Origin: Helicobacter sp. 16-1353
Lineage (GTDB): Bacteria > Campylobacterota > Campylobacteria > Campylobacterales > Helicobacteraceae
DNA: 64,000 nucleotides
Reading direction: 5' to 3'
Assembly (NCBI RefSeq): GCF_003288815.1
Contig: NZ_NHYM01000001.1
Location: 186,001 to 250,000, forward strand
A program made the position numbers and the translations under genes. Positions within the stretch are counted from its first letter, which is position 1. Each line of letters starts with the position of its first letter. Below are positions 15,927-51,004 of this stretch, piece after piece. The notes beneath the pieces were generated by a model that saw only the letters and a program-made list of their open reading frames with translations, searched no databases and was not told the DNA's origin.

Positions 15927-18161
15927 GTGAATTATCATTTAGATAGAATTGATTATGGAAAGGAGATTCAAGGATTTAGAGAAGAAAGCCTTATAAGATT
16001 CTCAAACTCAAATGCTTCTTATGATTTAGATTCCACAAGATTCCTAAAACCAATGAAATTTTTTCTCATAGTTTTATTAATCACACCTTTTGTATTTAAC
16101 CCACTTCGTTCTAGAGCTAGAGATATTACAGCAAATGATACAAGAATACAAAATGCTGAAAATGAAGTAAATGTAAAAACATCTACAATTAAAAATCTAA
16201 CTAACGAATCTACAATTACCAATCTAAAAGTTAATGAAAACGGAAAAGTAGAATATCTAGATAATTACGGAACAATCAACAATCTAACAAATGATAGAGA
16301 TGGAACAATAGAGCAACTAGATAATAATGAGAAAAGCAAAATTACTAATCTAACAAATAATAAAAAAGCACAAATCCATTACATAGATAATTACAAGGAA
16401 GGCACAATCACCAATCTAAAAAATAATGGAACGATACAATATCTAGATAATTACGGAACAATAAATAACCTAACAAATAATGGAACAATAGAATATCTAG
16501 ATAATTATAACGGGGGAGTAATCGATATTCTAAATAATTATGGAAAAATCAACAGCCTAAAAAATTCTACCACAATCACGAATCTAAACAACACAGGCGA
16601 AATTAGGCTACATAATATAAATAACGATAACGACATCAGCGATATTAAGAAAATTTACGCTCATATTAATAATATAACAGAAAATGCAACGATAAATATC
16701 TCAGCCTACCATTTAGTTATCGATAAAAAAGCTAGTGATTTTAATAGTTTTAGCGGATATAATGCCGAAAGTTATGACTTATCACATCTAGTCATACAAG
16801 ACACTTCAAGCAATAAAAAAGGTGTGAAATTAAAAGACACTAACTCTAAGATTCTTCTAACTTTAGGAAAAAGCTTTGAATTAAATACGAAATATTCTTT
16901 GGCTAAATTAATAACTAATACAGATGGGAATCAATATAAATTAACTTATGAAAATAATGGCGATATAAACTTAAATACATTATTTTCACATTTGAAGATA
17001 GTAGATTCTACTGCTTTGGGATATGATGCCTCATTTTTAACCTTAGTGTTAGATGGGGAATCTTTTAGGGTGAATATTCTTAGCTCAACTAACCAAATGA
17101 TAACAAACTCCATTCAAAACACTAAAAATAAGGCAAATGTAACAAATATCAATAATATAGCATTAAATCTTAAATCAAATGTATTTAAGAATCTAGGCGG
17201 AAGTGGATTAGCTCTAAGCAAAAGAGATGAAATATTACAAGAATTAGAATCTTTGAAAATCGCCAAAATAAGGCAATCTCTAGCAAAATCCAGCGAATCT
17301 AATTTTAAAGAAAATGATAGATTCTATTACAATAATACACAAGATTCCATTATCTTAGATTCTAATTTGAATTCTAATGATTCGCATAATTATCATACTT
17401 TCTTTACCCCATTTATAACGCATAGTATTTTAGATGGTGATATTAGTGGGTTAAGCTATGGCTTTGTAGGTGGATTTAATGCAAAATTAGCAGATTCTCA
17501 CACTTTAGGAACTCATATTGGATTTAATTACGGCTCTATGAATGGAAATAAATCAACCAATAATATAGATATAAATAATCTAAATATTTTATTGGGCTTA
17601 CACTATAAATTAGATTTAGTTTATGGTATGTATGTAAAAGCTTTAGTTGATTTTATCTATATTAATAATGATGGAAAATATTCATTTGACTTAGGATTAT
17701 ACAAGGTAAATTCTAACTCATATGGTTATAATGCAAATATAGCTTTTGGTAAGGATTTTAGTCTTAAAAATGCTGGAATCTTGGGAATAGAAATTGGCTT
17801 TAATCCACTTGGGATTAAAACTAATGACACGCAAATCGGCACTCACAAATATATTGGAGATTTTACTAATCTACTCTATGGTGATTTAGGACTAAACTAT
17901 AATATTAGATTTAAAAATGGGTTTGGATTAGATTCAATGCTTGGTGTAAAATATCTATTTAATAATCCACAAGGCAAAATGGCATTATTAAATACAATTA
18001 TAAATTATGATATTGGAGTAGATAAGCTCATCAGCTACATTGGATTTGGGGTGAATTATAGTGTAAATTCTAGCATTACTTTAGGTTTAAATTATCTAGG
18101 AAATTTTGGTGATAGAACAATTACAAATAGTGGATTTTTAAATATCAAAATTGGATGGTAA
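15927..18161 (+). CDS. Autotransporter-like outer-membrane protein
   Basis: The 744-aa protein has an extended N-terminus with a hydrophobic segment at about 46-60, compatible with a long signal peptide. A repeat region (about 75-230) is built on motifs such as GTIEYLDNYGTINNLTNN. From about residue 485 the sequence resembles an autotransporter beta-barrel and ends in aromatic W (NIKIGW), as in outer-membrane proteins. The start is GTG at 15927, six bases after AGGAG; the earlier ATG runs straight into a stop. The barrel presumably displays the Asn-rich passenger at the surface. Ligand unknown. Confidence 0.8.
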   Translation: MNYHLDRIDYGKEIQGFREESLIRFSNSNASYDLDSTRFLKPMKFFLIVLLITPFVFNPLRSRARDITANDTRIQNAENEVNVKTSTIKNLTNESTITNLKVNENGKVEYLDNYGTINNLTNDRDGTIEQLDNNEKSKITNLTNNKKAQIHYIDNYKEGTITNLKNNGTIQYLDNYGTINNLTNNGTIEYLDNYNGGVIDILNNYGKINSLKNSTTITNLNNTGEIRLHNINNDNDISDIKKIYAHINNITENATINISAYHLVIDKKASDFNSFSGYNAESYDLSHLVIQDTSSNKKGVKLKDTNSKILLTLGKSFELNTKYSLAKLITNTDGNQYKLTYENNGDINLNTLFSHLKIVDSTALGYDASFLTLVLDGESFRVNILSSTNQMITNSIQNTKNKANVTNINNIALNLKSNVFKNLGGSGLALSKRDEILQELESLKIAKIRQSLAKSSESNFKENDRFYYNNTQDSIILDSNLNSNDSHNYHTFFTPFITHSILDGDISGLSYGFVGGFNAKLADSHTLGTHIGFNYGSMNGNKSTNNIDINNLNILLGLHYKLDLVYGMYVKALVDFIYINNDGKYSFDLGLYKVNSNSYGYNANIAFGKDFSLKNAGILGIEIGFNPLGIKTNDTQIGTHKYIGDFTNLLYGDLGLNYNIRFKNGFGLDSMLGVKYLFNNPQGKMALLNTIINYDIGVDKLISYIGFGVNYSVNSSITLGLNYLGNFGDRTITNSGFLNIKIGW
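16190..16620 (+). repeat. Tandem Asn-rich repeat in autotransporter passenger
   Basis: Imperfect repeats of about 20 codons alternate two half-units, one encoding (N/G)TIxYLDNY and one encoding GTINNLTNN. Similarity is visible at DNA level (TATCTAGATAATTACGGAAC recurs). Such repeats can gain or lose units by recombination. Confidence 0.75.
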
Positions 18162-21967: not shown

Positions 21968-23365
21968 TTAGAGAGTGGCTTTTGGATGGGACTTTAAATC
22001 TTTTAGTTTATTCTTACTTTCACCCTTATTTAGAATCCTATGGAAAAAATAATAAATTATTAGAGCAATTCGCCAAATATGCGTTTTTAAGCTCCTCTTA
22101 TATGGCTTTAGGAAAATCTCTTTTTTGGGCGTTTCTTTGTGAGTTTTATAATCTTTTAGTATTTCTTTCCCCATAGATTCTAGCATTGAATAATCCTCTA
22201 AAACCCGCCTTCTAGCCTCCAAAATCGCCCCAAAATGCTCTTCATAAAAGTTGGATTCTAAGAGATTTTCTAGCCTCTTTATGGAATCTTCCACATTATA
22301 AATATCGATTTTTATAAACGAATTTTTTGGAAAATACCGCTCGATGTTCCCCGCCCCAAAGTAAATCGGCATCGCATAGCCAAGATAAGCGTCCATAATC
22401 TTTTCGCTGAAATAGTCGCTCTGGGCGTTGTTTTCGATAGCAATTGTGTATTTATAGGGCAGAATCCCGTCCTTTTTCTCCGCTAACTCATTTGGCGTTT
22501 TATTGCCATAAAAGTCGATTTTATCCCCAAGGTGGCTATTTTGAAGGGCTTTGACAAACTTCATTCTATCTAAATGCCCCGCAAACGCCTTTTTATCAAA
22601 ACTCGCAATGCAAGAAATCTCCTTAATCTTGCGTGGAATGGGGAGATTGCAAAGCTCGTTATATGGCATATTTGGAGCGAATAGAAAATACATCATCGGC
22701 GGATATTTGATGAAAATGGTGTTATGGAATTTTGCTTTACGGGGCGAATCTACTTCGTGTGAATGGGGATTTGAAGCGACTTGAATTGTAAGTTGGTTTG
22801 GATTTGTCGCAGGTGAGTTTAAAAAAGGCGAGTTTGAGTGCTGGAATCTTGTATTATCTAGCTGCTGCCCCCCCCCATTTTGGCTATTTCCGCCGTATTT
22901 AAGCACATTAGAATCTAACGCAAAATCCGCAGAATCTAAACTCGAATCTAGTGCGGAATCTAAATCTAACACAGAATCCAACGCAGTTTTAAACTCCACT
23001 TTTTCCAAGCAAGGAGCCTTAAAAAGCCCCTCGTTAAATGCAAATACAACATCGCAATGCGCGTAAGTCTCTGGCTTTATCGCCCACTCGTTTTTAAATG
23101 GTATGCCATACTGCTTAGATTCCTTTATATACGGCTCTTGCTGGAGTGCGAAAACTCGCCTAGCCCTTACCTTATGGGGTTTTATGGTCTTATTTATGAT
23201 TAGCACATAGTCGCAGTCAATGGGCTTTTCATCAAACCCGCGGAATTCAAAACTTAACTCTTCCCCACTTGGAGCGATAAACTTGCTATCGCCATTTTTT
23301 GAGAGATTTTTAATTTGACTTTTAAAGCCCTCCCTATAATCGCTTAAAATACACACTTTTATCAT
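21968..23365 (-). CDS. GT10 alpha-1,3-fucosyltransferase-like, phase variable (ON)
   Basis: A 465-aa glycosyltransferase whose C-terminal half matches family GT10. IAIENNAQSDYFSEKIMDAYLGYAMPIYFGAG (in pieces: AIENNAQSDYFSEKIMDAYL, PIYFGAG) is the GDP-fucose-binding signature, followed by FIKIDIYN. Such enzymes build Lewis-type antigens on Helicobacter LPS. Residues 129-153 form an Asp-Ser-rich insert (LDSALDSSLDSADFALDSN). A G9 tract (C9 on the plus strand at 22868-22876) encodes Gly164-166 and keeps the frame open, so the gene is on as sequenced. It diverges from a second phase-variable glycosyltransferase, 54 bp apart. Confidence 0.85.
   Translation of the reverse strand: MIKVCILSDYREGFKSQIKNLSKNGDSKFIAPSGEELSFEFRGFDEKPIDCDYVLIINKTIKPHKVRARRVFALQQEPYIKESKQYGIPFKNEWAIKPETYAHCDVVFAFNEGLFKAPCLEKVEFKTALDSVLDLDSALDSSLDSADFALDSNVLKYGGNSQNGGGQQLDNTRFQHSNSPFLNSPATNPNQLTIQVASNPHSHEVDSPRKAKFHNTIFIKYPPMMYFLFAPNMPYNELCNLPIPRKIKEISCIASFDKKAFAGHLDRMKFVKALQNSHLGDKIDFYGNKTPNELAEKKDGILPYKYTIAIENNAQSDYFSEKIMDAYLGYAMPIYFGAGNIERYFPKNSFIKIDIYNVEDSIKRLENLLESNFYEEHFGAILEARRRVLEDYSMLESMGKEILKDYKTHKETPKKEIFLKPYKRSLKTHIWRIALIIYYFFHRILNKGESKNKLKDLKSHPKATL
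22868..22876 (-). repeat. Poly-G tract (G9) in fucosyltransferase gene
   Basis: Nine consecutive C on the plus strand (G on the coding strand) lie inside the open frame, codons 164-166. Length change by one base would truncate the protein before the GT10 domain. Confidence 0.9.
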
Positions 23366-25337: not shown

Positions 25338-25763
25338 ATGGAAAATATTAAAATTGGTTCACACTTAGAAGTTGACCGCAAAAAATTTTACGACTTGATA
25401 GATTACACTCATCACGGAATTTATATTGGGAACAACCAAGTAATTCACTATTCAGGCAATAAAATTGTCGAGCAAGATACATTAGAAAACTTTTTAAATG
25501 GCAACAATTATAGAATAATCGAACATTCAAACAGACTGGATACAAACTCAATACTTAAAAACGCTACAAGCAAATTAGGCGAATCAAAATACGATTTTTT
25601 GCAAAACAATTGCGAACACTTTGCGGTATGGTGTGCCACTGGCAAACATATTAGCAAACAAGTAAACATGGCAAAGCAAGTTGCCGTGCCTTTTATATTG
25701 GTTTTTGCAGTAGCAAGTGCGGTGTATTTTTGGCGAAAAAACAAAAACGATATTAAAGAGTAG
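25338..25763 (+). CDS. LRAT/NlpC-P60-fold protein with C-terminal membrane anchor
   Basis: A 141-aa protein with the LRAT-domain pattern. YTHHGIYIGNNQVIHYSG (His, about 24-41) is followed by the Cys motif NNCEHFAVWCATGKHIS (about 91-107), and a hydrophobic helix at about 115-131 is followed by a Lys-rich end. LRAT-like proteins are thiol acyltransferases or hydrolases acting on lipids; the same layout occurs in animal PLAAT enzymes and in some phage and bacterial proteins. The ATG follows AAGGAAAC. It lacks the GAWTC clusters of neighbouring accessory genes and may be acquired. Role unknown. Confidence 0.7.
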   Translation: MENIKIGSHLEVDRKKFYDLIDYTHHGIYIGNNQVIHYSGNKIVEQDTLENFLNGNNYRIIEHSNRLDTNSILKNATSKLGESKYDFLQNNCEHFAVWCATGKHISKQVNMAKQVAVPFILVFAVASAVYFWRKNKNDIKE

Positions 25764-25779
25764 CCCTAAACTATATATT

Positions 25780-28700
25780 TTAGTTGATGACAAAGTCCGT
25801 CTCTTGCTTATCTAAACCATAAAGCGAACAGACCAAAAAATCTATTTTAGATTCTAGCTCTTTTGTGGATTCTCCGGAATCTTGGGCTTTTGCCTCTAAA
25901 ATTTTATCCACTAAATCTATGATTTTATCGGCTAGTTTTTTGTTAGATTCTGTGATTTGTGGGATTGGGATTCTCTCCAAATATGGAATATCATATCTCA
26001 CATAGCCACCCGCCAAATGCGTTGAACCGAAATAATGTTTATACCAAAAATCAGCAAGTTTGGAATTTAAGATTCCTAGTATATATTTTGGATTCACCGC
26101 AAAATCTACAATCAGCGTTGATTTGCCTACAAAAAATTTATTTGTGTCAAAAGTAGCTTGAATATTTTTTGTCATTCTTGCTATTACAATTTTTTCTTTA
26201 TTGAAACATTTTTTTATTTCGTTTGAATAAATTTCAATTGGTATGTATTCTTTTTGCCAAACAATCGCATATCTTTTTATGTCTGCTGTTTGTATGATTG
26301 GTGCATAAAGTTTTTTTGATTTTTTGTCTAGGGATTCAAAATCAATAGATTTTATTTTCATTTTGCCATATCCACTTTTTGAAGTTCCCCATTTTAGCGT
26401 CCCCAAATCCGCCAAAGTGTCGCATTTAACTTTTAGGAAATTGATTTGATTTTTTTGTATATTGATAGATAATTTATCGTTATTTTCATAACTTTTTATA
26501 TTGTGTGAATATGCAAATCTATCTTGTTGCCACAAATTTATTCTAATAGAATCTTGTTTTTTTGATTTTTTTAAAGCCCAAACCATAGGATAAGTAGAAG
26601 CTGAATCAAAAACCTTGATATAAGAACAATCGGCGATAAAATCAATATGCCCCTTATCCAACAATAATTTTCGTGTCCCATATGCGAAATCTGCCTGTAA
26701 CATAGCTATTGGGTTAATAAAACTTATCGTGGCATTGTGTGTGGTAACTTCGATTCCCTTTTCTACGAAATAACAAAATATATTTGGTCGCTTAGATTCC
26801 ACATTGACTGCGTAGTTTTTAGTTCCCTTTATTGTCTCAAAAGAAATTTGGCGATAATCAATATACGGCGGATTGCCGATGATTAAATCAAATCCTTTGA
26901 AATCGCCATTTTTATCCAAAACTTCCGGGAACTCAAATCGCCACTCAAAAGTATCTGCATTTTTGATATTTTCTAACGCATCATAATCTCTAAATATGGA
27001 ATCTAGTAGATTCTGCCCTTTTATATCTATGCTCTCGGGTTCTAGTTTATACAAAGTGGGCTGAAATTTATAGTTATTTTTCCTAGCGATTTTTATCATC
27101 TCCATTCCAAAGGGCGTTTCTAAATCAAAGCATAAATCGCCATAAGTCTCCACGAAACTTTTTAGATTCTGCGTTAGATTGCTTTTTATAGGGCTATTTT
27201 CAAGCAAGTAATTTTTAAAAATCTCTTTTAGATTGTTGATATTTTGCGTGATTGTCCGCTTATTCCCCAGTGCATTTTTGTATAAATCCACTTGGGCTTT
27301 ATACTCTCTAATCGCCTCTTGTAAATTCCTAGCAAAGCCAAGTCTTATGCCAACATTGCCAGTCAGGCTAGAATCTAGCGAGAAATTGCTAATTAGGCTA
27401 TTTCCGCATTTGATATTTATATCAATGTTTGGGAGCGTTTCAAGGTGCTTTTGGGCGATATCTGTGTAAAAGCTGTATTTTAGTAGCTCAATCCAAAGGC
27501 GGAGCTTGGTGATTTCACATGAATTAGGATTGATATCCACGCCAAAAAGGCAGGATTCTATAAGCTTACGCTTTTGGTAGAAAAGTGCCTTTTGGATTTT
27601 GTGAGATTCTATATTTTCGTGCGCTGGGTGCGTGTAATGGTGGATTTCATTATTTGAATCGTATATGACGATTTCATCATTTTTTAGCTCTAGGCGGATA
27701 TCTTTTAGCTTTTTGCCATTTTCATCGCATAGGATTCCAAGCTCAAATTTTAATAAAATGAGCTGATTTAGCGCGGAAACTAGAAAGTGCCCACTCCCCA
27801 CAGCTGGGTCGCAAATACGAATAGAATCTATAATGTCATTTGCTTTTTTAATGTCGGTGATTTGGTTGTAGAGATTTTGAAGTGCTTGTTTTTGGGTGGT
27901 TTGGGTGCTTTGGGAATTTGCCGAATCTGCGGAATCTTGTGGCGTTTGGGAATCCGCCGGATTTTTAGAATCTGGTGCGTTTTGGGAATGCACTGAATCT
28001 AGATTCGCCAAATCTTGCGATATATCGGCGATTTTAAAGCCATTTTCGCGGAATTTTTCAAGGGCGATTTTGCGGATAGATTCCTCGCACATGTAATTTG
28101 TAATAAAGCTAGGCGTATAAAAGCTGCCGTCCTTATAGCCATTTAGCTTTTCAAAGACAAGCCCGAGAATTGCGGAGTTTATGAGCTTATCAAAGTTTAT
28201 TTTCGTGTGATTTTCAATATCTTTTGGCGTGGTGGTGAAATCATAAGCGTTTAGGAATGCAAAAAGATATTCTAAAAGTGGAAGTTTTGGGGCTTTGCTG
28301 GACTTTAAAAGCGTCTTTGCAAGGGGCGTTTTATATAAAATTGAGCTTGGGTAAATCGCTAAGGCATTAGAATCAAGTAGCTTTATTTCCCTGCCCTCTA
28401 ATTCAAGTGCGGTTTTTTCAAAAAGGCTGGAATTTAAATAGGGGATTTGGCGTAGGATTTTAGGGAGATTTAAATCCGCTCTATCAGCCTCTTTTTTAGC
28501 CAAAATCTCAAAAAATAGCGTGTTTAGAGTGGCGAAATTAGGAATAGATTCTAAATCTAAAAATGACTTGTCAATGTGCTTAAAGCTAAGTAGCATGGAC
28601 TCTAAAAGACGCAAGAATAAAATGCGATTATTCCAAGTGGTGAGGAGCGCGAAAATGACTTCAAAATCAGCTTTCCTATCAAGCTTAAAAATGCGTGAAA

Positions 28701-29721
28701 TGCTATCACTAAGGGCGTTTGACGTATCGCTTAGGACAATTTTAATAATGCCATTTACGCTAATTTCCTTTAAGCCTAAAATGTAAAGTAGCTCGTTATA
28801 AAAGCCTTGATTTAGGGTGTTGGCGTCAAGCTGGGATTTACGCTTTAAAAGGCAAAATGGGCTTAGGGCTTGGTATAAAAGCGATAGATTTGCTTGAGCG
28901 GTGGAGTCTCCGGTGGAATCTGTTTTTGAATCTTGGGTGATTTGCTTCGCGGAATCGTGTGCGGATTTTGTGGAATCTTTTGAATCTTTGGCGATTGATT
29001 TAGCGATAGAATCTAAATTGATATAGCAATAATCTATCTCTAAATCTGCGGTTTTTAGGTAATTTTCTAAGCTGGAATAAAATTTTTTCGTGCTGGTGTC
29101 GCTTCCGTCTTTTAAGTCGCAGTTTTTATAAAACTTTAAGATTTGCTTATCTTTGGCGAAATTTTCCTCATATTGCTTGGAATCTATGATGTAAAATTCT
29201 CGTGCGGTGGCGAGAATAATGTGCTTTATATTGTTATTATTTTTAGCTTTGCTTTCACGCAAATAATAAAGAATGGATTCATAAAATGCCTTAGATTCTA
29301 GGGAGTTGGGAGCGGAATCTGTTTTTAAATCTAGGGCGGAATCTGTGCTGGAATCCGTCTTAAAATCTTTAAAATCCAGCTTTAAGGTTTGGGCGGAATC
29401 TGGCTCAAAATCTTTATTTTGGCTTGGGAACTCCGCCTTATTACTTAGTGATTTTATCTCAAAAATGACCGCTGGGTGCAAATCATAAGAATCCTCATAA
29501 ATCGCCAAATCAATTCTATCTTTTGTATTTAGCTCATAGCCATAAAAATCGCCTAAGAATTTCAAAATCTCGTTCTTTTGATACTCCTCGCTATCTTGGA
29601 GAATGGATTTTTCTAAAAACTCACTAAATGCATTTTGGAATCGCTCCAAAGTCCGCTTGCTAGGTGTGATGATATTATATGGCTCTAAAAACTCGCTCAA
29701 ATTGATAGGGATAAAGTGCAT
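25780..29721 (-). CDS. Type IIG restriction-modification enzyme
   Basis: A single 1313-aa chain with nuclease, N6-adenine methyltransferase and specificity regions. A PD-(D/E)xK-like site lies at D71 with E88-x-K90 (HPAVIFEIKS). Methyltransferase motif I is DPAVGSGHFLVSALNQL and motif IV IIGNPPYIDYR. The C-terminus (about 1080-1290) looks like a target-recognition domain (LAGGYVRYDIPYLERIPIP). Several Asp-Ser-rich inserts, near residues 105-140, 245-275 and 575-615, are encoded by GAATC/GATTC arrays. There is no separate S or R gene, which fits type IIG. The recognition site cannot be read from sequence. Confidence 0.85.
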   Translation of the reverse strand: MHFIPINLSEFLEPYNIITPSKRTLERFQNAFSEFLEKSILQDSEEYQKNEILKFLGDFYGYELNTKDRIDLAIYEDSYDLHPAVIFEIKSLSNKAEFPSQNKDFEPDSAQTLKLDFKDFKTDSSTDSALDLKTDSAPNSLESKAFYESILYYLRESKAKNNNNIKHIILATAREFYIIDSKQYEENFAKDKQILKFYKNCDLKDGSDTSTKKFYSSLENYLKTADLEIDYCYINLDSIAKSIAKDSKDSTKSAHDSAKQITQDSKTDSTGDSTAQANLSLLYQALSPFCLLKRKSQLDANTLNQGFYNELLYILGLKEISVNGIIKIVLSDTSNALSDSISRIFKLDRKADFEVIFALLTTWNNRILFLRLLESMLLSFKHIDKSFLDLESIPNFATLNTLFFEILAKKEADRADLNLPKILRQIPYLNSSLFEKTALELEGREIKLLDSNALAIYPSSILYKTPLAKTLLKSSKAPKLPLLEYLFAFLNAYDFTTTPKDIENHTKINFDKLINSAILGLVFEKLNGYKDGSFYTPSFITNYMCEESIRKIALEKFRENGFKIADISQDLANLDSVHSQNAPDSKNPADSQTPQDSADSANSQSTQTTQKQALQNLYNQITDIKKANDIIDSIRICDPAVGSGHFLVSALNQLILLKFELGILCDENGKKLKDIRLELKNDEIVIYDSNNEIHHYTHPAHENIESHKIQKALFYQKRKLIESCLFGVDINPNSCEITKLRLWIELLKYSFYTDIAQKHLETLPNIDINIKCGNSLISNFSLDSSLTGNVGIRLGFARNLQEAIREYKAQVDLYKNALGNKRTITQNINNLKEIFKNYLLENSPIKSNLTQNLKSFVETYGDLCFDLETPFGMEMIKIARKNNYKFQPTLYKLEPESIDIKGQNLLDSIFRDYDALENIKNADTFEWRFEFPEVLDKNGDFKGFDLIIGNPPYIDYRQISFETIKGTKNYAVNVESKRPNIFCYFVEKGIEVTTHNATISFINPIAMLQADFAYGTRKLLLDKGHIDFIADCSYIKVFDSASTYPMVWALKKSKKQDSIRINLWQQDRFAYSHNIKSYENNDKLSINIQKNQINFLKVKCDTLADLGTLKWGTSKSGYGKMKIKSIDFESLDKKSKKLYAPIIQTADIKRYAIVWQKEYIPIEIYSNEIKKCFNKEKIVIARMTKNIQATFDTNKFFVGKSTLIVDFAVNPKYILGILNSKLADFWYKHYFGSTHLAGGYVRYDIPYLERIPIPQITESNKKLADKIIDLVDKILEAKAQDSGESTKELESKIDFLVCSLYGLDKQETDFVIN

Positions 29722-36192: not shown

Positions 36193-36356
36193 AAGAAGTT
36201 AAAAGAGTTTGCAAGAAAGAGCATGTTTACGTGGTTTTGTAGGGTTTGTGGATTCTATGGAATCTTTTGTGAAAGTGGATTCTGTGGAATCTACGCTGGA
36301 ATCTTGTGTGAGTTTCTGCTCTAAGAAATGAAGCATTTGCTTTGAATGTTTCCCAT

Positions 36357-40589: not shown

Positions 40590-40830
40590 CTAGATTCTAT
40601 CAATTTGGCTTAAAATTCCACTTTTCGTGGAATCTGCTGGGGAATCCGCCATAGAATCTTACGCGGAATCTTTTGTAGAATCTGCTGAATCTATTTTTTG
40701 GAATCGCTAGAATCTCGCCTAAATTCTCGCACGGAATCTACTGAATCCTGTTTGCTAGAATCCGCCAAATCTTGCCTAGAATCTAGCACGGATTCAACCG
40801 AATCTGCTTTATTAGATTCCGCCAAATTTC
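40590..40830. repeat. GAWTC array at 3' end of cytochrome b gene
   Basis: I count 16 copies of GAATC or GATTC in 240 bp by hand, nearly all as GAATC on the plus strand. The array runs from intergenic DNA into the last 45 codons of the cytochrome b gene and makes its Asp-Ser-rich tail. Confidence 0.85.
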
Positions 40831-41488
40831 CCCCAAAATCCCCCTTTCTCGCCTCTTTTACGCATTCTTCCCACAAGCAGTGTCGCTCTAGGGCATACTC
40901 CGCTTCCACTTTTCCGCCAAACATCGCGGGGAGCAACTTGCGATTTGCCTTTGGGATAAACGCCAAAAGGTGGAGAATAACCAGCACGATAATCAAAATC
41001 GTCCCTAGATTATGCAGTTGTGCCGCCCAAAAATACAGCCCATTTGGGATATCAAAACCCAAAAGATTTTTATATGTCTTAACCAGCCCAGTTACAATTA
41101 GTAACAGCAAAGTCAAGCCAATCGCAAGATATGCCAACCTCTGCTCCGGGAGATATTTCCCTGAGGGAGGCTCTTTGGAGCCTGTTATCATCGCCTTTAT
41201 CACAAGGTAGCTATTTTTGATATCGCCTTTTTTGGGAAATATGTCAAATTCGCCCCGTAAAATGTGGTAGGCGAGGTGAAAGAACGCAAAAAATACCAGC
41301 AAAAACGCAAAAATATAATGCACGCTCAACCCCACGAAATACTCTCCGCTCCACTCAAGTAGCTTGTCGATGTTGTATCGCTTTGCCAGTGGGAGCTGGA
41401 ACATACCGCTTACGACCAATCCGCCCACACTTAGGGCGACGCCCCAGTGGATTATTCGATTTTGAATGCTTTGTCGAGTTATTTTCAT
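40691..41488 (-). CDS. Formate dehydrogenase-type cytochrome b subunit
   Basis: A 265-aa membrane cytochrome b like FdoI/FdnI. It has four hydrophobic helices (about 16-33, 56-75, 117-137 and 160-180) with His residues suited to two hemes (IIHWG, VHYIF, FFHLAYH, AAQLHNLG). It passes electrons from a periplasmic Fe-S partner to quinone. The last 45 residues are an Asp-Ser-rich tail (DSVESVLDSRQDLADSSKQD) absent from the family. The Fe-S protein gene upstream on the same strand is a plausible partner; no molybdenum catalytic subunit is nearby. Confidence 0.82.
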   Translation of the reverse strand: MKITRQSIQNRIIHWGVALSVGGLVVSGMFQLPLAKRYNIDKLLEWSGEYFVGLSVHYIFAFLLVFFAFFHLAYHILRGEFDIFPKKGDIKNSYLVIKAMITGSKEPPSGKYLPEQRLAYLAIGLTLLLLIVTGLVKTYKNLLGFDIPNGLYFWAAQLHNLGTILIIVLVILHLLAFIPKANRKLLPAMFGGKVEAEYALERHCLWEECVKEARKGDFGGNLAESNKADSVESVLDSRQDLADSSKQDSVDSVREFRRDSSDSKK

Positions 41489-41669
41489 TTTTTTCCTTTA
41501 TTTGTAAAGTGTAATGCTCTCAAAATATAAGCGATAAGTAAAATTAAGGCGAAGCCCTCCAGTATTTTTAAGCCTTAAGTTTTAAGCGAATCTGTTTTTT
41601 ATTAATTTGGATAATTTTTATTTTGTCCCACTCACCACCCTTTTATGTGTGAGGCTGACGCCTCACACG

Positions 41670-41830
41670 AGATTTGTAAAAATTGCTAAAGCAATTTTTC
41701 ATAAATTTCTTAGTCTCCGTGCGTTAGCATTGGGGGGATAAGGGGAGCGATTTCGCCTTTGCCACGAAGTGGCAAATTCATCATTCAAGCCCCCTTGTCC
41801 CCCCCCCCCTTTTTTTTTACTAAACAAGAC
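41670..41830 (-). repeat. Dispersed hairpin repeat, copy 2
   Basis: Read on the minus strand this matches 12283-12480: TTTAGTAAA, a homopolymer stretch, GACAAG, GGGCTTGAATGATGA, TTTGCCA with a hairpin, then CTAACGCACGG. The stretch that is short in copy 1 is expanded here to A9G11. Boundaries are approximate. Confidence 0.7.
41799..41818. repeat. C11-T9 homopolymer tract
   Basis: Eleven C followed by nine T, in non-coding DNA inside copy 2 of the dispersed repeat. Such tracts are slippage-prone. Confidence 0.85.
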
Positions 41831-42161
41831 GCTTAAAAACGAAAAGCAGGGGTTCTATGGAAAAATGATTTTATAAAGGCGTTGCCTTTTAAATCTAGAT
41901 TCACTTAAAACTTAAGTGTTTTTATTCGCTGGAAAGCTTCGCCCTCGAATCTATATTACCGCCTAGCGCCCCTATTTTGTGAACTATTAAACCCAAGTTT
42001 TAATAATTAGTTTTTAATGCCTACCGCCCTTTTTACAAGCCATTTCATCACAAATTCTTTAGCCAATTTTAAGCCCAAATCCCACGCCATTTTTAAACCC
42101 CACTAGAATCTAGATTCCCCCAAATCCCTTTATTTCCCCCTTTTTGCCCCCTCCTTTTTCT

Positions 42162-43106
42162 TTATCGCCGCAAAGCTCGCTCCAAGCACGCCGCAAATGG
42201 GGCGATTGTAACAGCAAGGGCAAGATTTGCTGACTTCTCCAGTGGATTCCGCACCTTTTCCATATGTGGACGCCCCATTTTGGGCTTGTTGTTATATTTT
42301 TCTAAAATCGCCTTGTTTATATCCTCAAATTTTATGCTACTAATATACACGCTCACCGTCCTACCATTCTCTTCGAGTCTGTAAATATGGCGTTTGTCGT
42401 GCTTGATTCGCTCTAAAATCTCGCTTTCCTTGCCAAATTTTATGGCATTTTTGGGGCATTTGACCTCACAAACTGGCTTCTCCCCTCGCTCCAGCAAGTC
42501 CTTACGCATATCGCATTCATACATCACACCGCCACCAGCGAGTTTTGGGGCGGTTTTAAGGTAGATTCCAACTCCGGCTTGACGCTGCGGAATCTCCCAC
42601 GGACACGCATCTCTACACTTCGCCCCACCAAAGCAAAAGTCCTTATCTATATCCACTGCCCCCTCCTTACTTTTGCTTATCACGCCAAAGGGGTAGAGCT
42701 TTTGGCAAGGTGGATTGTCGCAGTGCATACATCGCCTAGGCACGAAAACCTCCCTATTAGCGACCTTCACGCTCTCCACATAAGTCCAATTATAGGGCGT
42801 TAGGCGAGTTATATCCTCCTTATTTTTGGAGTAATCCTCGTGCTTAGTTTGCGGGAAATAGTCCATTATAGGGTGCGTTGGCTGGGGGAAATTAGCCTTA
42901 TTTTTCTCCTTACACGCACTCACGCACAAGGGAGTTTCAAGCCCCTTGCAACCATCGCATAAATCAAGGTCTATGATACTCATAATTTTCGTGGAATCTG
43001 CATTTGGCGAATCTAGATTCCGCGAATCTACACTCGCTAAATCCTCAGCGACCGCACTACTAGCGAATCCAACTGCGCTAAATTTGATAAAATTTCGTCT
43101 ATTCAT
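42162..43106 (-). CDS. Tat-exported 4Fe-4S electron-transfer protein
   Basis: I start at the ATG at 43106, which yields a Tat signal MNRRNFIKFSAVGF; the open frame extends upstream to 43247 without support. The mature protein (about 315 aa in total) carries four Cys clusters: CDGCKGLETPLCVSAC, CMHCDNPPCQKLYP, CFGGAKCRDACPW and a lone CEVKC. It resembles the beta subunits of DMSO reductase/formate dehydrogenase complexes that wire the enzyme to a cytochrome b. An Asp-Ser-rich patch (SVDSRNLDSPNADS) follows the signal. The cytochrome b gene lies 673 bp downstream. Confidence 0.85.
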   Translation of the reverse strand: MNRRNFIKFSAVGFASSAVAEDLASVDSRNLDSPNADSTKIMSIIDLDLCDGCKGLETPLCVSACKEKNKANFPQPTHPIMDYFPQTKHEDYSKNKEDITRLTPYNWTYVESVKVANREVFVPRRCMHCDNPPCQKLYPFGVISKSKEGAVDIDKDFCFGGAKCRDACPWEIPQRQAGVGIYLKTAPKLAGGGVMYECDMRKDLLERGEKPVCEVKCPKNAIKFGKESEILERIKHDKRHIYRLEENGRTVSVYISSIKFEDINKAILEKYNNKPKMGRPHMEKVRNPLEKSANLALAVTIAPFAACLERALRR

Positions 43107-43118
43107 ATATTTTTTGCC

Positions 43119-43156
43119 TTTAGAAATTTTTAGAAATTGGAAAATTTTTAGAAATT
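43119..43156. promoter_or_regulatory. Three direct repeats in divergent promoter
   Basis: TTTAGAAATT occurs at 43119, 43129 and 43147, two in tandem and one 18 bp further. They sit between the divergent Fe-S protein and Crp-family genes and may bind a regulator. The first overlaps the Fe-S gene's AAAGG ribosome-binding site. Confidence 0.5.
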
Positions 43157-43206
43157 GTATGTAGAATCCAACTTTATTTTCTGTAACTAAATCACAAAGG
43201 ATTTTT

Positions 43207-43854
43207 TTGAAAAGCGAGTTAAAAGACGAGATTGGGGCGATTATCAAGGCTAGATTTTCTCACTTTGATTTGGAAAAAAGCGACTTGGAGTTGCTCTCCC
43301 AAAGTGCCATCTACAGCGAGTTTGAAGCGAAGCAAAATCTTTATCAAAGCAAAAAATCTTGCTATGGATTTGTCATAATCATTGATGGCGTCCTTCGAGC
43401 CTACACGCTCTCCCCCAATGCCAAGGAAATCACCATTTTCACACTAAAAAGGGGCGATGAGTGCATTATATGCTCGACTTGCACGGCAGATTCCTTGCAA
43501 ATGGAGATTAATTTAGAGGTGCGGGAGTGCCTAAAAATCTGCTCCATTCCTCCTGAAGTTTTCTCCAAAATGCGTGAGAAATACCCCAAACTGGCAAATT
43601 ACACGCTAGAACTCCTCTCAAAAAGATTCGCCCAAAGCATAAATATAATGCAACAAGCCCTATTCCTCCCACTAACGGAGCGAATCGAGGAGTTTTTAAG
43701 AGATAATGCAAAGAATAATATCGTAGCCTTTACGCATGAAGAAATCGCAAATAATCTAGGCTCCTCACGCGAGGCGATTTCGCGAATCCTAAAAGAAATG
43801 GAAAAAGCTGGGAAAATCACTATTTCACGCAGCAAAATCACTATTAAAGATTAA
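43207..43854 (+). CDS. Crp/Fnr-family transcriptional regulator
   Basis: A 215-aa regulator with an N-terminal cyclic-nucleotide-like beta barrel (about 30-120) and a C-terminal winged helix (FTHEEIANNLGSSREAISRI near 175-194). Five Cys lie in the sensor half (CYG, CIICSTC, CLKIC), so redox or metal sensing is possible. The start is TTG at 43207, preceded by AAAGG. It diverges from the Fe-S gene and precedes sqr, so it probably controls respiratory or sulfur genes. Confidence 0.88.
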   Translation: MKSELKDEIGAIIKARFSHFDLEKSDLELLSQSAIYSEFEAKQNLYQSKKSCYGFVIIIDGVLRAYTLSPNAKEITIFTLKRGDECIICSTCTADSLQMEINLEVRECLKICSIPPEVFSKMREKYPKLANYTLELLSKRFAQSINIMQQALFLPLTERIEEFLRDNAKNNIVAFTHEEIANNLGSSREAISRILKEMEKAGKITISRSKITIKD

Positions 43855-43860
43855 TTTTTT

Positions 43861-43990
43861 GTGCTTAGATTCCGCATAGATTTTGCTTAGATTCCCAATA
43901 AATCCAGCTAGATTCCGCTTTAGATTCCGTGCAAAATCTCATTTAGATTCCCACATAAATCCCGCTAAATTCCACCTTAACGCCCCATAA
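43861..43990. repeat. Intergenic AGATTCC array
   Basis: Five AGATTCC heptamers lie within about 85 bp (near 43867, 43888, 43910, 43922 and 43944), interleaved with degenerate copies such as AAATCCC, between the Crp-family gene and sqr. Confidence 0.8.
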
Positions 43991-44001
43991 AAACCCCCAA
44001 A

Positions 44002-44016
44002 TGTAACATTATCACA
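44002..44016. promoter_or_regulatory. Crp-like half-site pair before sqr
   Basis: TGTAA-CATTA-TCACA lies 55 bp upstream of the sqr start. It resembles the TGTGA/TCACA type of site bound by Crp-family proteins, with one mismatch and a five-base centre. The regulator gene is directly upstream. Confidence 0.35.
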
Positions 44017-44070
44017 GATAAGATTCCGCCTTTTAACCTAAGATGTCCTTTTTATTTTAAAGGAGGCACA

Positions 44071-45432
44071 ATGAAAAGGCGAAATGCCATAAAATTACTT
44101 GGGGCTGGAGCGAGTTTGCTACTGGCAAATGGGACTTTAGGCAATGAAAATCCGGCAAATCTGGCGAATGAAAACGCTACAAATAAAACGCCAGAAAGCA
44201 TAGAAAACAGCAAAGCAAATATCGCCATAATGGGAGCCGGACTAGGGGGAATCTCACTTGCCGCAAAACTCAAAAGAGACTTGCCAAATGCGAGTATTAG
44301 CCTATTTGACGCCGATGAGACATTCTACTATCAGCCGGGATTTACGCTAATTGGCATTGGAATCTATGATAAAAACGATGTAATTTTTGAGAAGGCGAAA
44401 TATATCCCGGAGGGCGTAAAATGGGTGCACTCCAATGTGGCAAAAATCCTGCCAGAGGAAAATGCCCTAGTGATAGAAAATGGCGAAAAAGTCGCATATG
44501 ACTATCTTGTAATCGCCTCCGGCGTGGAGTATGAGTTTGGCTCTATTGAGGGGCTAAGTGCGAGTATGGTAGAAGATTCCAGCTCAAATATCAGCTCGAT
44601 TTACACGCTAAAAGGGGCGCTTAAAACGAATGAGCTAATGAGTGATTTTGCTAAAAACGGCGGTAAAGCGATATTTTACGACCAAAAAACGGCGATGAAA
44701 TGCAGTGGTGCGAATAAAAAAATGCTCTCAATGACCGAGGATAGATTAAGGAGGGCTGGGAATAGGCAAAAAGGCGAGGTTGCCCTATACTGCGGAGGTG
44801 GGAAGCTCTTTGGCAATCCAGTGTATGCAGCAAGTATGGGAGCGATTTTTACCAAGCGAGACATAGCATTTAACTTACGGCACGAGCTAATAAAAATCGA
44901 TGGCAATACCGCTATTTTCAAGCACTGGACGCCCTATAAAAAGAATGGCGAAACTCATAAAATTGAGGATTTTATCGAGGTGAAGTTCGACTTTTTGCAC
45001 CTGTCGCCAAAACAAATTGGGAGTAAAATCATAAAAGAAGCCGGGCTAAGTAGCGGGGAGCAGGGCTTTTTGGCGGTGGAAAAAGAGAGATTGGTAAGCA
45101 TAAAGTTTAAAAATATATTTGGCATAGGCGATATTTGCGACTTCCCAGCTGGGAAAACTGGGGCAAGTATAAGGAAAATGTATCCGCTTTTAAGCCAAAA
45201 TATTATCCGCTCAATCCGTGGCGAGGAGCTACTCAAGGGCTTTGATGGCTATACGGCGTGTCCGTTTGTAACCAAATACGGCAAGGCGATAATGGTCGAG
45301 TTTAACTGGGAGGGGACAGCTAGCTCTCTGCCGTGCTTTGGGGAGGTGCGAGAGAGCTATCTTAGCTGGTTAATCAAGCTTTATGGCTTTAAGCCTATGG
45401 TGATGAATGGAATGCTAAAAGGGCTGGTGTAG
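44071..45432 (+). CDS. sqr: Sulfide:quinone oxidoreductase-like flavoprotein
   Basis: A 453-aa flavoprotein of the SQR family, which oxidises sulfide and passes electrons to quinone. A Tat-type start (MKRRNAIKLLGAGASLLLAN) suggests periplasmic placement. FAD motif IMGAGLGGISLAAKL is at 53-67. Cysteines of the family pattern are C211 (MKCSGANKK), C356 (GDICDFPAGKTG) and C397 (GYTACPFVTKYGK). AGGAGG precedes the ATG. A small DUF2892-like membrane protein gene follows, a pairing also seen with sulfur-metabolism genes. Confidence 0.85.
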   Translation: MKRRNAIKLLGAGASLLLANGTLGNENPANLANENATNKTPESIENSKANIAIMGAGLGGISLAAKLKRDLPNASISLFDADETFYYQPGFTLIGIGIYDKNDVIFEKAKYIPEGVKWVHSNVAKILPEENALVIENGEKVAYDYLVIASGVEYEFGSIEGLSASMVEDSSSNISSIYTLKGALKTNELMSDFAKNGGKAIFYDQKTAMKCSGANKKMLSMTEDRLRRAGNRQKGEVALYCGGGKLFGNPVYAASMGAIFTKRDIAFNLRHELIKIDGNTAIFKHWTPYKKNGETHKIEDFIEVKFDFLHLSPKQIGSKIIKEAGLSSGEQGFLAVEKERLVSIKFKNIFGIGDICDFPAGKTGASIRKMYPLLSQNIIRSIRGEELLKGFDGYTACPFVTKYGKAIMVEFNWEGTASSLPCFGEVRESYLSWLIKLYGFKPMVMNGMLKGLV

Positions 45433-45558
45433 GGCTTTTGCACTTGGTGATTTTGTGTCGGCGGATTTTACCGGCTATTTTACCGGCGGATTTGCCACAG
45501 AATTTGCCGACGGATTTGCCACAAGTGCAACAAAACAATCTAATTTAAAGGAGCAAAA
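45433..45558. repeat. Short imperfect repeats after sqr
   Basis: The spacer contains repeated GCGGATTT(TACC/GCC) units: GCGGATTTTACCGGC, GGCGGATTTGCCACA and GACGGATTTGCCACA. The ribosome-binding site of the next gene (AAAGGAG at 45547-45553) ends it. Confidence 0.5.
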
Positions 45559-45726
45559 ATGAGTATTTTGGATAAAACGATTCGTTTATTGGTGGCGGGA
45601 ATTATCTTTTTTATATGCGGATTTATCTGCCAAAGCTGGTGGTGGCTAATAGGCTTAGTCCCGCTACTCACGGCAATTTATGGCTGCCCGATGTATAAAA
45701 TATATGGATTTATAAGAAAAAAGTAA
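45559..45726 (+). CDS. Small DUF2892-type membrane protein
   Basis: A 55-aa protein starting MSILDKTIRLLVAGIIFF with two membrane helices and the C-terminal YGCPMYKIYGF. This matches the DUF2892 (YgaP-like) inner-membrane family, including the conserved CP dipeptide. AAAGGAG lies six bases before the ATG. It is co-oriented with sqr, 126 bp downstream, so a role with sulfide oxidation is likely but unproven. Confidence 0.8.
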   Translation: MSILDKTIRLLVAGIIFFICGFICQSWWWLIGLVPLLTAIYGCPMYKIYGFIRKK

Positions 45727-45739
45727 TTTATGAGAATCT

Positions 45740-45830
45740 AAGCTGGAATCTGCCATAGAATCCTAAAGTTAGAATCCCACGCTAGAATCTATGTGGAATC
45801 TAGTGGGAATCCGCAAGATTCTCCGCAATA
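45740..45830. repeat. Intergenic GAATC array
   Basis: Seven GAATC/GATTC pentamers in about 90 bp, mostly as RGAATCY on the plus strand, between the DUF2892 gene and the next promoter block. Confidence 0.75.
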
Positions 45831-45993: not shown

Positions 45994-47248
45994 ATGGAAT
46001 TCAATGAAGCAATAAACGGGGGGGGGATTTTTTAGAGCCTTAAATAATTACGCAAAAAAAGACAAGAAATCTCCTACTTTAATAGCAATACCTGATACTT
46101 CCGCACTACTTAAAAATATACGACTCTTATATAGCTTATTAGAGGATTATGATTTTGTGCTAATCCCAACAACGGTAATGAGGGAATTGACACACATAAA
46201 AGATAGGAAAAAATCTCATAATTCCACTTCCGCCGATAGACAAAATGCAAAAATGGCATGGGAAGTTCTAGTTACTTTAAATGATTGCATACTCACATAT
46301 TCTACAAAAGTTTATAAAATTGATAATGAAAAATACAAGATTCCAGATAGCACACAAAAAGGGGCAAATAATATAAAAAACGACCATAAGCTTATGGCAT
46401 TAGCGGATGATATTTCACGGAAAAATCTTGGTAAAGTTCATATCGTGCATAATGATGTGGATTTTGCCGTGTATAGTGGAGTGGCTATAACAATTGCGGA
46501 GTATTTTGCAAAGCGAAATAAAATAGCAGATTACACAGATATAGATAAGCTAGATAAGGAATTTAATAATTTAGAAAGTCTTAGAGAAATAATCAAGCGA
46601 GTAGATATAAATGCGTATTTAGAAAATGGAGCGACGCTATTAATAAATACCATAAAGTGCAATATGCCCGAACAAATCAAAGCTAGAGGCGGAGTTAGAA
46701 TACCAGATAGAAAAGTGATAGAGAAAATAAAATTTCTCTTAGACAATGGGGCAGATTTAAACAAAAACGACAATGGATACCATTGCTTACCACCATTATC
46801 ACATAGCATACAATTAAGAGAATCCTATGGCTTTGATATTTTTAAATTGCTAATAGAGCGGGATTGCGATATAAATAAGGCTTCAAGGGACGATAGCAAT
46901 CCAAAGAAAATAGGAGGCTTAAACGAGGGAAATACGCCACTTATGATAGCTTGTTTCCACTCTAAAAAGAAATTTATTCATATGCTTTGTGAGCGAGATG
47001 AGATTTCTATAAATCAGCAAGATAATAATGGCTTTACCGCTTTAATAAAATGTGCTCTCAAAAGATACGAGACAATAAAGCAAAATAAGCCCCACGAGCT
47101 AAATGACGAGCTATACGAATATATACGCGCCCAGCCTAAAGTAGATATATCTATTAGAGACAGGAATAACCACACAGCACAAGATTGGATAAAAAGAGGT
47201 GATTTCTTAAAGCAAGGGAAAAGCTATAAGGAAAATGAAAAATGGTAG
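45994..47248 (+). CDS. PIN-nuclease/ankyrin-repeat protein, phase variable (OFF)
   Basis: The ATG at 45994 (with AAGGG before it) starts a frame that reaches a G9 tract at codon 9 and stops at TAG three codons later. With G8 the frame stays open to 47248 and gives 417 aa. The N-terminal domain is a PIN nuclease: D34 (IPDTSALLKN), E64 (IPTTVMREL), D130 (NDHKLMALADD) and D154 (HNDVDF) are the four acidic residues expected. From about 195 ankyrin-type repeats follow (KFLLDNGADLNKND, GNTPLMIACFHSKKKF, NNGFTALIKCAL). It probably cuts RNA under control of the ankyrin part. It overlaps the radical SAM gene by seven bases. Confidence 0.85.
46018..46026 (+). repeat. Poly-G tract (G9) in PIN-ankyrin gene
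   Basis: Nine G at codons 9-11. G8 or G11 opens the long frame; the present G9 does not. Translation could only restart downstream (for example GTG at 46157) without the first catalytic Asp. Confidence 0.9.
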
Positions 47249-49935: not shown

Positions 49936-50757
49936 ATGAAAGATTTACATATACACACAAAATATTCCGACGGCGAGTTTGACGAAAATGAGATTCTTGA
50001 AAAAATCATAAGTGCAGGGATTACAGAATTTGCAATTTGCGACCATGATACGATTGAGGGCTCAATGAAAGTTTGTGAAAAAATCAAACAACTTAATCTT
50101 GACATTATTTTTCATTCGGGTATTGAAATTACAAGCAGAATCAATGATATTTTTGATGGAATTAGCGTTCATTTGCTGGTTAGAGATTTTCAATTTGACG
50201 ATAAAGTTATATTAGATGCCATCTCTATTATGAAACGCAACCGATTAAAAAACCTTGATTTAATGCTGGAAGGTGTTAAGAAAGATTATAATGTTGAAAT
50301 TCCCAAGCAAAGAATTGAAGAAGTTTTAAAAGAAACAAATTCAATAGGTGAGCCACATGTTTATAAATTGCTATGTGAAATTAAAAATATTGATGAAACT
50401 TACTTTTATGATAAGACTATAAAAAATTTAAAAACAGAACATCTTAAAATTGACGCTGCTTGGCTACTTGAAAATTTTAAAGGACATCAAGGTTACATCA
50501 CCCTTGCTCACCCAATAAAGATAATGAAAGACTACAATTTTTCTTATGCTGATATTGAAAAAATTGTAGAACATTTACATGGTTATGGTCTTAAAGGTTT
50601 GGAGGTTGAATATAGTAAACACACAAAAAAAGATATTGCCGAATTCTCAAAAATCGCAGATAAATTTAATTTAATCAAAACCCCCGGTAGCGATTTTCAC
50701 GGACCAAATGTAAAACCAAATAGATTTTTGGGCGTTTGTCAAAAACAAGATTCTTAG
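49936..50757 (+). CDS. PHP-domain phosphoesterase
   Basis: A 273-aa metal-dependent phosphoesterase of the PHP family. Metal-binding motifs are DLHIHTKYSDG (3-13), FAICDHDTIEG (about 33-43), GIEIT and the C-terminal GSDFHG. It resembles YciV/RnmV-like 3',5'-nucleoside bisphosphate phosphatases, which also trim RNA ends. Its DNA lacks GAATC/GATTC clusters, unlike the nearby accessory DNA, so it may have been acquired. Whether it belongs to the upstream operon is unclear. Confidence 0.85.
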   Translation: MKDLHIHTKYSDGEFDENEILEKIISAGITEFAICDHDTIEGSMKVCEKIKQLNLDIIFHSGIEITSRINDIFDGISVHLLVRDFQFDDKVILDAISIMKRNRLKNLDLMLEGVKKDYNVEIPKQRIEEVLKETNSIGEPHVYKLLCEIKNIDETYFYDKTIKNLKTEHLKIDAAWLLENFKGHQGYITLAHPIKIMKDYNFSYADIEKIVEHLHGYGLKGLEVEYSKHTKKDIAEFSKIADKFNLIKTPGSDFHGPNVKPNRFLGVCQKQDS

Positions 50758-51004
50758 CTTAAACTAAAATAAAATTAGGCTCAACCCAAGCAAAGAGGAA
50801 TTTTGAAAATCGATTTCAAAATCGCCCTATAAAGATTCTTGCTTTTTATTTTAGCGTTACGCCTAAAATAACATTCTTTTAGGGGAATCTTGCAGTAGAG
50901 ATTCTGCCATAAATTCGCCAGATTAAATAGATTCCGCTAGATTCCACGCTAGATTAGCGAGATTCCGCCCCATATTTAATGGGAGAATCCGCCCTAAATC
51001 CGCC
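50758..51004. other. Spacer with hairpin and GATTC cluster
   Basis: No gene. It contains a hairpin TTTTGAAA/TTTCAAAA (about 50802-50823), a second TTTTAG/CTAAAA palindrome (about 50850-50871), and a cluster of seven or more GATTC/GAATC sites from 50830 on, between the convergent PHP and alaS genes. Confidence 0.5.

Follow-up and report, generated by a model that had tools for sequence, protein, structure and literature searches.

The 7-base word RGAWTCY, which has a GAATC or GATTC core, is enriched in coding and non-coding DNA of Helicobacter sp. 16-1353 and most of its non-gastric relatives, mostly where the platform of a type II secretion system/type IV pilus (T2SS/T4P)-like machine is present. 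Clusters of the core pentamers were noticed in a stretch of 64,000 nucleotides of this genome (assembly GCF_003288815.1, contig NZ_NHYM01000001.1, positions 186,001 to 250,000), hereafter the window. We give somewhat better than an even chance to the reading that natural transformation in the non-gastric Helicobacteraceae uses RGAWTCY as the recognition word of its DNA-uptake system, and that the word has spread by transformation drive. Literature searches, confined to open-licence PMC papers, turned up no report of the word.

Abundance and placement of RGAWTCY

The window holds 433 GAATC/GATTC pentamers, where base composition predicts 134 and a third-order Markov model 262; its densest 240 bp carry 16 pentamers and its densest 90 bp carry 8. 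In 40 second-order simulations of the window the maxima stayed at or below 6 per 240 bp and 4 per 90 bp, and 40 fourth-order simulations, which reproduced the overall number of pentamers (mean 429), reached at most 9 and 5. Both the abundance and the clustering of the pentamer in the window are beyond chance. The initial annotation had counted 16 pentamers at 40590-40830, 5 at 43861-43950, and 7 at 45740-45830, and had called the clustering extreme in coding and non-coding DNA; the counts are correct, and the description understated the case, since the word is genome-wide and family-wide.

Genomes are labelled G, genera g, and families f; G000 is the genome under study and f1 the family of 121 genomes to which it belongs. 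The word was analysed in a 459-kb sample of G000 (24% of the genome), comprising positions 1-180000 of contig C11, the window, and stretches of contigs C1-C4 and C6-C10, these contigs having been chosen because cluster matches were listed there; word density in the sample (2,458 in 458,825 bp, or 5.36/kb) is close to that of the genome (5.10/kb). RGAWTCY is the sharp form of the clustered pentamer. AGAATCT, GGAATCT, and AGAATCC occur at 10.6, 11.0, and 5.6 times the expectation of a first-order model. Variants with C or G at the centre (AGACTCT/AGAGTCT) reach only 0.26 times expectation, and most single-base variants of AGAATCT lie near 1 or lower, the main exceptions being CGAATCT (3.5), AAAATCT (1.76), ATAATCT (1.73), and TGAATCT (1.65). 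The flanks of the 7-mer are weak and carry little information. Because RGASTCY is depleted (16 observed versus 130 expected), the word is not a GANTC signal, and the earlier suggestion of a GANTC-type methylation target is contradicted in that form: the centre must be A or T. Across the whole genome (1.907 Mb, 32 contigs) RGAATCY occurs 4,876 times in forward and 4,857 times in reverse orientation, 9,733 in all or about 5/kb, and a reversed control pattern occurs 1,167 times. The proposed check for strand bias relative to replication was thus negative; along the C11 stretches no strand switch was seen, GATTC staying slightly ahead throughout while the GC skew changes sign.

Genes in the sample were called with a custom script based on open reading frames (ORFs) and codon scores, and some "intergenic" DNA may represent missed or dead genes. 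As a null model, synonymous codons were shuffled within each gene, preserving protein and codon usage. The sampled genes hold 1,981 words versus 525 after shuffling, a 3.8-3.9-fold excess, and six control patterns gave ratios of 0.13 to 1.09. The word is present in 280 of the 288 genes of at least 200 aa (195 expected). More than half of all words in the sample (1,391 of 2,458) have no neighbour within 30 bp, and isolated words in these 288 genes number 1,092 versus 382.5 shuffled. Given the codon-shuffle excess, the presence in 280 genes, and the excess of isolated words, neither protein selection nor arrays alone explain the word. Even spacing is not claimed: the variance-to-mean ratio of 0.65-0.68 obtained after merging words within 60 bp is about what a 60-bp dead time alone would give (estimated at ~0.66), and in unmerged 1-kb bins the ratio is 2.16. 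The segments of the sample poorest in words hold core genes, and no foreign island was identified in it. The contrast once drawn with two foreign-looking genes said to lack the clusters is uninformative, because the gene at 25338 has no words but a codon-shuffle expectation of 0.0, and the gene at 49936 holds 2 against an expected 0.7.

Word density is higher between genes (8.15/kb) than within them (4.93/kb), and it is highest in convergent gaps (15.25/kb, versus 6.97 in tandem and 6.82 in divergent gaps); 311 of 464 intergenic words lie closer to a gene end than to a gene start. Within genes all six frame/orientation classes are used, the commonest being GATTC in frame 0, encoding Asp-Ser (DS; 654 words), and GAATC in frame 0, encoding Glu-Ser (ES; 427); the other four classes hold 899. 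The sample contains 65 clusters of at least 5 pentamers. Same-orientation neighbours dominate within genes, mostly at spacings that are multiples of three, and intergenic neighbours within 20 bp are mixed (82 same versus 64 opposite). Same-orientation intergenic pairs within 30 bp also favour multiples of 3 (57 versus 29 and 26), which fits the caveat that some of this DNA represents missed or dead genes. Several protein clusters, among the few cluster-bearing proteins whose domains were checked, are low-complexity DS/ES stretches beyond the matched domains; in glutamate synthase they lie in a linker and the tail. Arrays in the window, with the genes they touch, are listed by position (strand is given for genes and ORFs).

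17295..17383, in-frame array of 5 inside ORF 15927-18161 (+)
22911..22978, in-frame array of 5 inside ORF 21968-23365 (-)
25780..29721 (-), ORF of 1,313 residues in which three in-frame arrays (27923-28006, 28916-29013, 29276-29355) encode DS-rich stretches
36251..36303, intergenic array of 5 pentamers in mixed orientation
40630..40819, array of 15 GAATC/GATTC (13 of one orientation and 2 of the opposite one) that starts in non-coding DNA and extends into the cytochrome b561-type gene at its 3' end
40691..41488 (-), cytochrome b561-type gene, PF01292 at residues 6-192 of 265, probably formate dehydrogenase gamma-like
43868..43950, array of 5 GATTC, all of the same orientation, in the gap separating a Crp-family gene (43207-43854) from an oxidoreductase gene (44071-45432)
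45734..45821, 8 pentamers (7 GAATC, 1 GATTC) arrayed in intergenic DNA downstream of the oxidoreductase gene 44071-45432
50885..50989, intergenic array of 6 pentamers in mixed orientation beside a PHP-domain gene (49936-50757)

The array at 40630-40819 encodes the DS/ES-rich C-terminal tail of the cytochrome b561-type protein; orthologues were found in 4 of 19 other genomes, and their alignment reaches residues 214-229 at most. The ORF at 25780-29721 holds 31 words versus 10.5 by codon shuffle. Elsewhere in the window, ORF 46157-47248, upstream of a radical-SAM gene, matches a PIN domain weakly and carries ankyrin repeats after it.

Words have also entered an essential enzyme. The valyl-tRNA synthetase (ValRS) of G000 carries three word-rich in-frame insertions (~80, 45, and 19 residues) that most orthologues lack, and its residues 222-308 stand where the Thermus enzyme has about four residues. 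When an insertion was defined as 12 residues or more that at least 80% of the 30 genomes compared lack, word-bearing ones were present in six (G000, G036, G040, G042, G049, and G050) at several positions, those of G036 and G040 being shared; they were found in none of the seven word-poor genomes compared (G016, G006, G012, G223, G283, G104, and G109). The sole other insertion flagged, at the N-terminus of the G283 enzyme, lacks the word. The insertions share the 7-mer and otherwise differ, with some diverged array families between loci. The ValRS insertions indicate that words arise by insertion as well as by substitution.

Other short sequences in the sample also deviate from first-order expectation. 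GATC (12 of 2,709), GTAC (4 of 975), GGCC (32 of 1,843), and ACGT (30 of 1,000) are near-absent, and GATC is nearly gone in G042 as well (10 of 471); this depletion looks like restriction avoidance. Runs of eight G are ~20-fold above expectation (97 of 4.8), as in phase-variable tracts.

Distribution of the word and of the putative uptake machinery

We infer that f1 is the Helicobacteraceae, that its genera other than g2 are non-gastric, and that f11 is the Campylobacteraceae. Genus g2 appears to include H. pylori, an assignment based on IS605 of G016 and the DNA around it, 95-99% identical to H. pylori plasmid and phage records. Counts per Mb were derived from tables with rounded genome sizes. 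RGAATCY exceeds 1,000/Mb (both strands) in 76 of 87 non-g2 genomes of the family versus none of 34 g2 genomes, which hold 153-431 per strand. The 11 non-g2 genomes below this level comprise all seven of g11 together with G082, G091, G092, and G117; in g11, G082, G117, and G092, unsupervised codon-shuffled k-mer counts in 20-80 kb samples gave no clear alternative word. In a sample of G120 (g13), an enriched GAATC has different flanks (CGATTC 128, versus 41 after codon shuffling), which may represent a dialect. Beyond the family, a single genome of 269 (G121) exceeds 1,000/Mb. Dense clusters (three GAATC with short gaps) are more restricted, numbering 293 in G000, 188 in G042, 99 in G050, 55 in G052, and at most 27 in all others; that more than 50 occur in only 4 of 121 genomes, across three genera, suggests repeated runaway. 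The H. cinaedi plasmid pHci1 carries 107 words in 23,054 bp (4.64/kb), 97 of them in the 25 coding genes counted (of 34) versus 32.6 expected, and an H. pylori plasmid carries 1 word in 12,887 bp.

PF00482 (T2SSF), the inner-membrane platform of T2SS/T4P-like systems, was found in 86 of the 121 genomes, comprising 86 of 87 non-g2 and 0 of 34 g2 genomes; of the 35 genomes without it 20 were named and the remainder obtained by subtraction. The lone non-g2 exception, G043, is 67% complete. In G000, GspE-like and GspF-like genes adjoin a secretin gene, and the gene for DprA lies a short way beyond the window. It and ruvX adjoin the gene for a beta-class methyltransferase of 215 aa (PF01555; L094:3649-4296, equivalent to C11:253652-254296), ~3.7 kb past the window. 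This linkage is not general, dprA/ruvX being found near the enzyme at only 1 of 30 loci with ~1.5-kb flanks. Relatives of the enzyme are 56-77% identical in many non-g2 genomes and 52% identical on Campylobacter plasmids; PF01555 as a family was examined in 10 genomes.

Competing explanations for the word

The lineage-specific uptake word is the best supported of the ideas in the initial annotation, because RGAWTCY is restricted to the family, strand-balanced, permissively placed, and absent from the platform-less genus of H. pylori; our confidence in it is partial. Under such a mechanism, cells would favour DNA that bears the word, either at uptake or by protecting and recombining it, and alleles gaining the word by mutation or insertion would be over-represented among imported fragments and would spread (transformation drive, or molecular drive). 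If it matters how many words a fragment holds, drive could fill convergent gaps, protein tails, and inter-domain linkers with arrays, and could favour even in-frame insertions in essential enzymes. An extended form of this proposal, which we hold only tentatively and think more likely wrong than right, is that recognition is additive, uptake rising with the number of RGAWTCY per fragment, and that there would therefore be drive towards saturation in G000, G042, G050, and G052. Gaps would be packed, ValRS invaded, and the genome reshaped by a selfish 7-base word, from which gastric helicobacters would have escaped by losing the reading machine.

Several observations weigh against an uptake word. 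All seven g11 genomes have T2SSF, yet their counts are low and two sampled g11 genomes show no word enrichment; the platform machine is therefore not sufficient for the word. The g2 contrast in platform and word may be a single evolutionary loss and, with the g11 exception, makes the association suggestive rather than proof. None of the methyltransferases tested follows the word: 14 of 121 genomes lack PF02086, including several rich in the word, and in word-rich G042, G050, G089, and G114 the 215-aa beta-class enzyme is either missing or has only a distant match. Uptake words elsewhere are not known to be packed this densely. Finally, the word is dense on pHci1, unlike the DNA uptake sequence (DUS) of Neisseria, which is absent from recently acquired genes according to PMC2397512.

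A less probable explanation, but the strongest of the competitors, is that an intracellular DNA-binding protein or an orphan methyltransferase with a nucleoid, chromosome-organising, or epigenetic role acts at RGAWTCY, and that selection on this role keeps the word abundant. The word is sharply defined and its variants together form a self-complementary set, the kind of site preferred by dimeric proteins and methyltransferases, and the strands are balanced. Words nevertheless crowd gene ends and convergent gaps rather than upstream regions, a plasmid is equally dense, neither PF02086 nor the 215-aa enzyme tracks the word, and binding-site selection does not readily explain long word-rich insertions in essential enzymes. 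For a chromosome-organising word in particular, the balanced strands and the density on pHci1 weaken the case.

We consider it unlikely that the word arises, with no preference at uptake, from biased mutation or repair such as short-patch repair or gene conversion in favour of RGAWTCY. A non-selective process would hit genes, gaps, and plasmids alike, as is observed, but no single neighbouring word is uniquely depleted as its donor, and a point-wise bias does not insert tens of codons. Still less probable is a spreading micro- or minisatellite made mainly by local tandem duplication. Local duplication does contribute, as in the diverged tandem at 40678-40840 (57-bp unit, 2.9 copies, 76% matches), and the dominance of same-orientation neighbours in genes and the diverged array families between loci are in keeping with it. 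The pure form is contradicted by neighbouring spacers that differ, with spacer-by-spacer identity generally absent, by the mixed orientation of intergenic words, and by the many words that stand alone. Protein selection for Asp/Glu-Ser-rich disordered tails, to which the abundance of the DS and ES classes might point, is very improbable as the source of the word, since the excess persists with the protein fixed, density is higher between genes than within, and the other four classes are well filled.

Comparison with known words

Two families, Neisseriaceae and Pasteurellaceae, have well-described uptake words, and a methyl-marked word is known in Campylobacter. DUS and the uptake signal sequence (USS) of Pasteurellaceae resemble RGAWTCY in being family-specific, over-represented on both strands, permissively placed, found at gene ends, and divided into dialects; they differ in having a core of 9-12 bp with conserved flanks, against a 7-mer with little flank information, and a density of about 1 per kb, against about 5-7 per kb here. 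Arrays, in-frame insertions, and presence on a plasmid further set RGAWTCY apart. Membership of the DUS/USS class, with its long core and flanks, is not claimed, but on present evidence the word would work like one. Permissive placement of DUS/USS is reported in PMC2397512 and PMC3630211.

There is also a likeness to the methylated RAATTY uptake word of C. jejuni and its methyltransferase CtsM: the same order, a short self-complementary R...Y word, a T2SS/T4P-like machine, and genomic enrichment of RAATTY in f11. The core here is GAWTC in a 7-mer, and the clusters are much denser. PF02086, the class of CtsM, is not universal among the family genomes. After codon shuffling, RAATTY stands at 1.36-fold in G223 and 2.8-fold in G283, versus 0.66-1.04-fold in Helicobacteraceae samples, and RGAWTCY at 0.53-fold in G223 and 0 in G283. 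AAATTT exceeds TTTAAA 1.5-3.6-fold genome-wide in the f11 genera g23, g46, g53, and g66 (~0.7-1.15 in g36); outside f11 this is mostly not seen, exceptions including three f14/g38 genomes and several genomes with few sites. The three (G164, G201, and G224), alone in their group, show a 7-11-fold ratio. In G283, TAAATTT occurs at ~10 times first-order expectation (106 of 10); in this genome and the others of f11/g23 it is possibly an uptake word on the Campylobacter side, one that is denser there than among C. jejuni-like genomes. In PMC10046745, C. jejuni is described as taking up DNA through a T2SS/T4P-like system and importing only DNA methylated at RAATTY, and H. pylori as indifferent to DNA source. 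The genus that shows no discrimination is thus the genus lacking the word.

Other short motifs are more distant. GANTC, the site of CcrM, shares the GA.TC frame, and H. pylori possesses GANTC methyltransferases (PMC3936762); here, however, a C/G centre is depleted and the flanks are specified. The Rickettsia palindromic element also enters proteins in frame, but the present insertions have no common element beyond the 7-mer. Unlike FtsK-orienting polar sequences (KOPS) and Chi, the word has no replichore strand bias, and unlike a microsatellite it has no general head-to-tail unit, spacers and orientation varying apart from the minor local tandem.

If the uptake reading is correct, a Helicobacteraceae word missing from the genus of H. 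pylori would help to explain the indifference of that species to DNA source, and its relatives need not be indifferent. The word would then aid genetics in enterohepatic species, and would represent an extreme natural case of DNA-level drive written into essential proteins, in which the question of drive versus selection for uptake sequences becomes directly testable.

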